Source: Candidatus Dormiibacterota bacterium
GTDB lineage: Bacteria > Acidobacteriota > Polarisedimenticolia > Gp22-AA2
Length of the DNA stretch: 64,000 nucleotides
Direction of reading: 5' to 3'
NCBI GenBank assembly: GCA_035635555.1
Contig: DASQAT010000046.1
Location: 1-64,000 of the forward strand
In this document: positions 57,299 to 57,375 of the stretch, piece after piece
How the letters are laid out: each line of letters starts with the position of its first letter
How positions within the stretch are numbered: position 1 is the stretch's first letter
The notes under the pieces: generated by a model
Seen by the model: only the letters and a program-made list of their open reading frames with translations
The model's database searches: none
Told to the model about the DNA's origin: nothing
Made by a program: the position numbers and the translations under genes

Positions 57299-57375
57299 GC
57301 ACGAGTCTGCAAACCATCCCGGGACTGCTCACGACGTTCTTGGTCGGGGGAGTCTACACAAGCCTGCTCGTGGTG
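57299..57375 (+). pseudogene. Decayed fragment of a MurJ/MviN-type flippase gene
   Basis: The translation GTSLQTIPGLLTTFLVGGVY followed by TSLLVV matches the N-terminal region of the intact flippase downstream (GTSLQ, then after 8 residues TIPGLLTTLLGGGIYGSLLVV, encoded at about 62000-62100). At the DNA level the two share long identical runs, such as ATCCCGGGACTGCTCACGACG. Relative to the intact gene the fragment lacks 24 bases in frame and everything before and after, and it runs into a TGA at 57400-57402. It is a leftover of a duplicated or replaced flippase gene. It sits right after asnB and before the promoter of the next gene. Confidence 0.85.

Follow-up and report, generated by a model that had tools for sequence, protein, structure and literature searches.

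A probable pseudogene relic of a second MurJ-family flippase gene in a polysaccharide locus of an uncultured member of the Acidobacteriota

Nucleotides 57297-57384 of the 64,000-nt stretch of DNA analysed here (the window, part of contig C46) were interpreted as a non-functional pseudogene relic that derives from a second MurJ-family flippase gene, a reading to which we assign a probability of about 0.87. The relic sits in a polysaccharide gene cluster of a soil acidobacterium, and close relatives differ in the genes that this cluster contains. Homology to the intact flippase gene, truncation, a breakpoint relative to one congener (G003) and further flippase relics in another (G001) were all observed, and turnover of flippase genes in this locus through gain, replacement and decay provided the best reading and the simplest account of them.

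Homology and decay of the relic

Alignment of the relic with the intact flippase gene (Table 1) showed 85% DNA identity over 67 nt (57/67 nt by blastn, E 1e-16), and a direct repeat search returned an ungapped match of 76 nt at 82% identity between 57309-57384 and 62032-62107. Gapped alignment lengthened the relic leftward to 57297 by adding CGGCACGAGTCT, approximately 12 nt that matched beyond a 24-nt in-frame gap. These pairwise alignments bore out a preliminary description of this DNA, in which a fragment sharing GTSLQ-TIPGLLTT with the intact flippase and carrying a 24-base in-frame deletion was regarded as the fossil of a second flippase gene. Of the limits given there (57299-57375), the right one coincided with the end of good similarity, whereas the start was found at 57297 or 57298 and weak similarity extended to 57384.

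Table 1. Features of the window at and around the flippase relic.
Feature	Position	Strand	Remarks
Asparagine-synthase-like gene	55368..57248	+	ends ~49 nt before relic
Relic of MurJ-family flippase gene (probable)	57297..57375	+	~codons 37-70 of intact copy less 8 codons
Junction	57376..57390	.	flippase similarity stops (57375/57384), similarity to G003 membrane-gene upstream region starts (57386/57391)
Upstream region of membrane-protein gene	57391..57541	+	first 140 nt 87% identical to G003:C131:501-640
Membrane-protein gene	57542..59338	+	598 aa, no Pfam match; G003 orthologue 78% aa identity, located elsewhere
NAD-dependent sugar epimerase/dehydratase gene	59370..60422	+	PF01370, 2.5e-37
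Glycosyltransferase gene	60461..61624	+	family 4-like, weak match
Conserved upstream element of flippase gene	61699..61729	+	also before G001 N-terminal flippase relic
Intact MurJ-family flippase gene	61889..63469	+	526 aa, Pfam MurJ PF03023, 2.8e-47
24 nt of intact gene absent from relic	62008..62031	+	bounded by short GCAG repeats
Relic of family-2 glycosyltransferase gene 3' end	63501..63635	+	68% aa identity to residues 260-312 of 312 in G001

Identity no better than chance, which the preliminary description had named as an outcome that would speak against it, was not what was found. The relic reached an alignment score of 84, as compared to at most 33 among 1000 shuffles and at most 35 among 78 stretches of 361 nt taken elsewhere in the window. 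In a search of the complete genome to which the window belongs (4,280,676 bases in 59 contigs), the 88-nt piece matched only itself and the intact flippase gene (E 2.5e-15). Similarity of membrane-protein codons through chance or convergence, refuted by the shuffles and the unrelated window stretches, was therefore given a negligible probability.

The 24-nt gap removes eight codons (QKDCYLIA or KDCYLIAQ) without shifting the reading frame. GCAG tetramers flank the corresponding stretch of the intact gene, an arrangement that would suit slippage. Both ends of the relic are cut, fewer than 30 of the 526 flippase codons are still aligned, and inspection of codons 57250-57402 revealed no in-frame start codon (ATG, GTG or TTG) between the stop codon of the preceding asparagine-synthase-like gene and the relic. 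The intervening 49 nt showed no similarity above shuffles to the flippase upstream region, to the window with L033 or to the G001 stretch. Significant homology to an intact gene thus coincided with lost integrity (truncated ends, deletion and lack of a start codon), the combination by which pseudogene relics are recognized. Whereas the intact parent gene is, by its Pfam score, a member of the MurJ/MVF family (PF03023), the fragment itself gave no Pfam match and cannot be a working flippase. Two observations that a long-dead gene need not show count against a relic: its frame remains open until a stop at 57400-57402, and the 10 differences from the intact gene in a conserved 63-nt patch fall 3/2/5 on codon positions, a number too small to assess relaxed selection or to date the end of selection.

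In the same patch, 53/63 nt of the relic were identical to the window flippase gene, 40/63 to that of G001 and 35/63 to that of G004. Judged by this comparison, the relic is clearly of the window's own flippase type.

A stray piece of flippase sequence, wrongly joined during assembly, might in principle produce the same picture in a draft genome of 59 contigs with an estimated contamination of 2.23%. This explanation is very unlikely: the relic diverges by 15% from the only other copy, it is internal to a contig of 423,612 bases, and G001, a different assembly, has similar relics. The divergence and the position inside this contig make a collapsed or duplicated assembly unlikely as well.

The junction and the relocated membrane-protein gene

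To the right of the relic, approximately 10 nt or fewer separate the end of flippase similarity from the point where the sequence begins to resemble the region upstream of a membrane-protein gene. This point was 57391 in comparison with G003 and 57386 in comparison with a second, more diverged copy of this region in the same genome (C46:70634-70805; L033:6634-6805). In G003, contig C131 (4,224 bases) has the membrane-protein gene and its upstream region between a thiolase gene and a GT2-methyltransferase gene. This contig matched window positions 57391-59338 (84%) and C46:71014-72947, and its thiolase-bearing end matched C46:70134-70794. The membrane-protein gene occurs only once in the window genome, and searches of G001, G002 and G004 gave zero matches to it. 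At the old site on C46, the coding part beyond the first codons scored 60.5, within the range of shuffled sequences (maximum 70.0 of 50).

Because the upstream similarity to G003 abuts the relic within approximately 10 nt, the relic marks a rearrangement breakpoint. The membrane-protein gene was probably located originally between the thiolase and GT2-methyltransferase genes, approximately 13 kb to the right in the locus, and was then relocated, since G003 has the gene at that site and the window genome keeps a decayed copy of its upstream region there. Movement in the opposite direction, with the thiolase site of G003 as the new location, is made less likely by this left-over copy. These positional claims are based on a single congener contig (G003:C131, 4,224 bases) and on draft assemblies. 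The 150-nt upstream region (57391-57541) is a possible leader element. Its direct junction with the relic was absent from the preliminary description, which had proposed that the 57.4-61.8 kb segment was inserted or rearranged between two flippase copies. Rearrangement was supported, but the membrane-protein gene was probably relocated within the locus. For the epimerase and glycosyltransferase genes of the same segment, the examined stretches of G001, G003 and G004 held no close counterpart, so that these genes may either have been gained in the lineage of the window or lost in the congeners.

The position of the relic directly before a conserved upstream region could suggest a present function, such as that of a regulatory leader, an antisense RNA or a recombination site. 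We consider such a function extremely improbable: in G003 the same upstream region and gene are present but the relic is not, the G001 relics derive from different portions of the flippase gene, and no Rfam family matched. Rfam searches yielded no match at E 1 for 57200-57700 and none at the gathering score for the window, L033, L036 and L047, and an RNA element in or next to the relic was rejected on this basis.

The locus is bounded on one side by a DUF4388 gene at 52025-53245, next to carB, and on the other by an acyl-CoA dehydrogenase/thiolase pair (C46 68,186-70,600). Four asparagine-synthase-like genes lie within 23 kb (window 44342-46483, 53424-55352 and 55368-57248; L033:909-2969), and at least four were also counted near the G001 locus. 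The gene at 44342-46483 has the 3' end of a GT4 gene (46243-46515) attached. G001 and G003 lack this asparagine-synthase-like gene at the corresponding spot but have a similar gene adjoining the GT4 gene of the right flank; judging from this arrangement, it seems, like the membrane-protein gene, to have moved by approximately 20 kb.

Flippase genes and relics in congeners

Five genomes of the genus were compared (G000, the window genome, to G004), four of which (G000, G001, G003 and G004) hold this type of flippase. The G003 gene is cut by a contig end and the G004 gene is apparently split over two contigs; in G002 (75% complete) only a distant MurJ was found. The window genome also encodes a distant MurJ (C46:293865, 25% identity), perhaps the housekeeping lipid II flippase. 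A search of genome contigs with the single flippase protein gave no match, and one with a flippase alignment gave one locus, apparently the G004 contig.

Identity to the window flippase was 47-52% for the intact congener flippases (48% for G001), as opposed to 69-87% for most flanking proteins and 77-87% for DUF4388, acyl-CoA dehydrogenase and thiolase where these were covered. Their place also varied. In G001 the flippase gene, although of another type, lies on the same side of the locus, adjoining DUF4388; in G003 it adjoins the GT4 gene on the other strand; in the window it lies just before the block of GT4 and asparagine-synthase-like genes. Because of this low identity relative to the flanks and these different places and strands, flippases appear to have been exchanged in the locus. 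Gene order, for which the preliminary description had suggested sister strains and which was compared here across congeners, indeed differed and revealed the breakpoint relative to G003, but not a simple inserted segment. In G003, carB was matched over only 218 of 1141 residues (L037:14670-18280, contig C16) and approximately 2.8 kb between carB and DUF4388 remained unmatched; a broken gene, an insertion or a mis-assembly are alternative explanations of the carB irregularity.

In addition to its intact flippase gene (C13:128324-129895, minus strand), G001 contains, within the same locus, one N-terminal and one C-terminal flippase relic. The former (C13:118059-118179, plus strand) matched the window flippase gene at 86/109 nt, whereas its best local alignment with the G001 flippase gene itself covered 31 nt (27/31). 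The C-terminal relic (approximately C13:125142-125390, minus strand) matched the G001 gene at 194/255 nt and contains an in-frame TGA. Since the window relic and the N-terminal relic of G001 overlap by only about 14 nt, they could not be placed relative to each other. The 31-nt element (window 61699-61729; L036:3035-3065) upstream of the window flippase gene and of the N-terminal relic occurred once in each of two of the six genomes searched and nowhere else in them. It reads GGATTTGGCGG..CGCCAGGCAC..TAATCC and shows inverted symmetry. A transposase-like remnant (L036:3219-3900; Pfam rve 1.2e-4, below the family cut-off) follows the N-terminal relic.

A scan of the locus proteins against the loci gave many rows, most of which were dismissed on visual inspection as paralogues or mis-called frames; the window flippase relic fell below its cut-off. 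Among the remaining rows were, in the window, the family-2 glycosyltransferase 3' end directly behind the intact flippase gene and the GT4 3' end beside another asparagine-synthase-like gene and, in G001, an asparagine-synthase-like 3' end (C13:127984-128109).

Exchange of flippases bears on the origin of the relic. Gene replacement, in which the relic would be the remnant of a flippase gene imported from a close relative, shares the interpretation as a relic and differs only on its origin. Besides the divergence and varying position of the congener flippase genes, the closer similarity of the N-terminal G001 relic to the flippase of the window than to that of G001 itself favours such an import. 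Yet the window relic is of the window's own type, and a divergence of 15% fits an old duplicate equally well. We regard import as a serious possibility, somewhat short of even odds. The preliminary description, which spoke of duplication or replacement, was right in kind; the matched stretch of 79-88 nt is too short to date the split or to separate the two.

For a decayed second copy, we infer the following order of events and origin. The lineage would once have carried a pair of flippase genes of one type in the polysaccharide locus, one of which was cut down by deletions, including one of 24 nt between short GCAG repeats. A rearrangement would then have joined the upstream region of the relocated membrane-protein gene to approximately codon 70 of this flippase gene, leaving 79-88 nt without start codon and without function, while the copy at 61889 stayed in service. 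More generally, flippase genes may be gained or duplicated in turn, with one serving and the others eroded and joined to the next arrivals.

A more speculative and rather unlikely extension is that cassette exchange in the genus preferentially breaks at the flippase gene, with copies in the same direction flanking new genes and one of them decaying. The window (relic on the left, intact gene on the right) and G001 (intact gene on the left, C-terminal relic on the right) would then be mirror outcomes. This mirror arrangement deserves a second look, two genomes being too few to support a claim.

Comparison with O-antigen gene clusters

If the proposed turnover is correct, a polysaccharide locus of uncultured Acidobacteriota has been remodelled in a way known from enterobacterial O-antigen clusters. 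Scraps of earlier flippase genes would record which transporters were formerly used, and otherwise represent ordinary genome decay. A literature search found no paper on an acidobacterial exopolysaccharide gene cluster with MurJ.

The sections of PMC3715488 that deal with the Salmonella O-antigen clusters of groups B1, D1, D2 and D3 describe differently truncated wzy remnants, ascribed to serial deletions after gain of another copy, and also a partial wzy duplication. Relative to what those sections report, the window relic is similar in being a short, truncated remnant of a polysaccharide-processing gene within its own cluster, and differs in stemming from a flippase rather than a polymerase gene and from Acidobacteriota rather than Enterobacteriaceae (PMC3715488). 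The Salmonella comparison concerned serogroups of one genus with known polymers (PMC3715488), whereas the present one concerns draft genomes of a genus without a known polymer. By analogy, the flippase relic would be of the same kind as the Salmonella wzy remnants, in another phylum and another gene.
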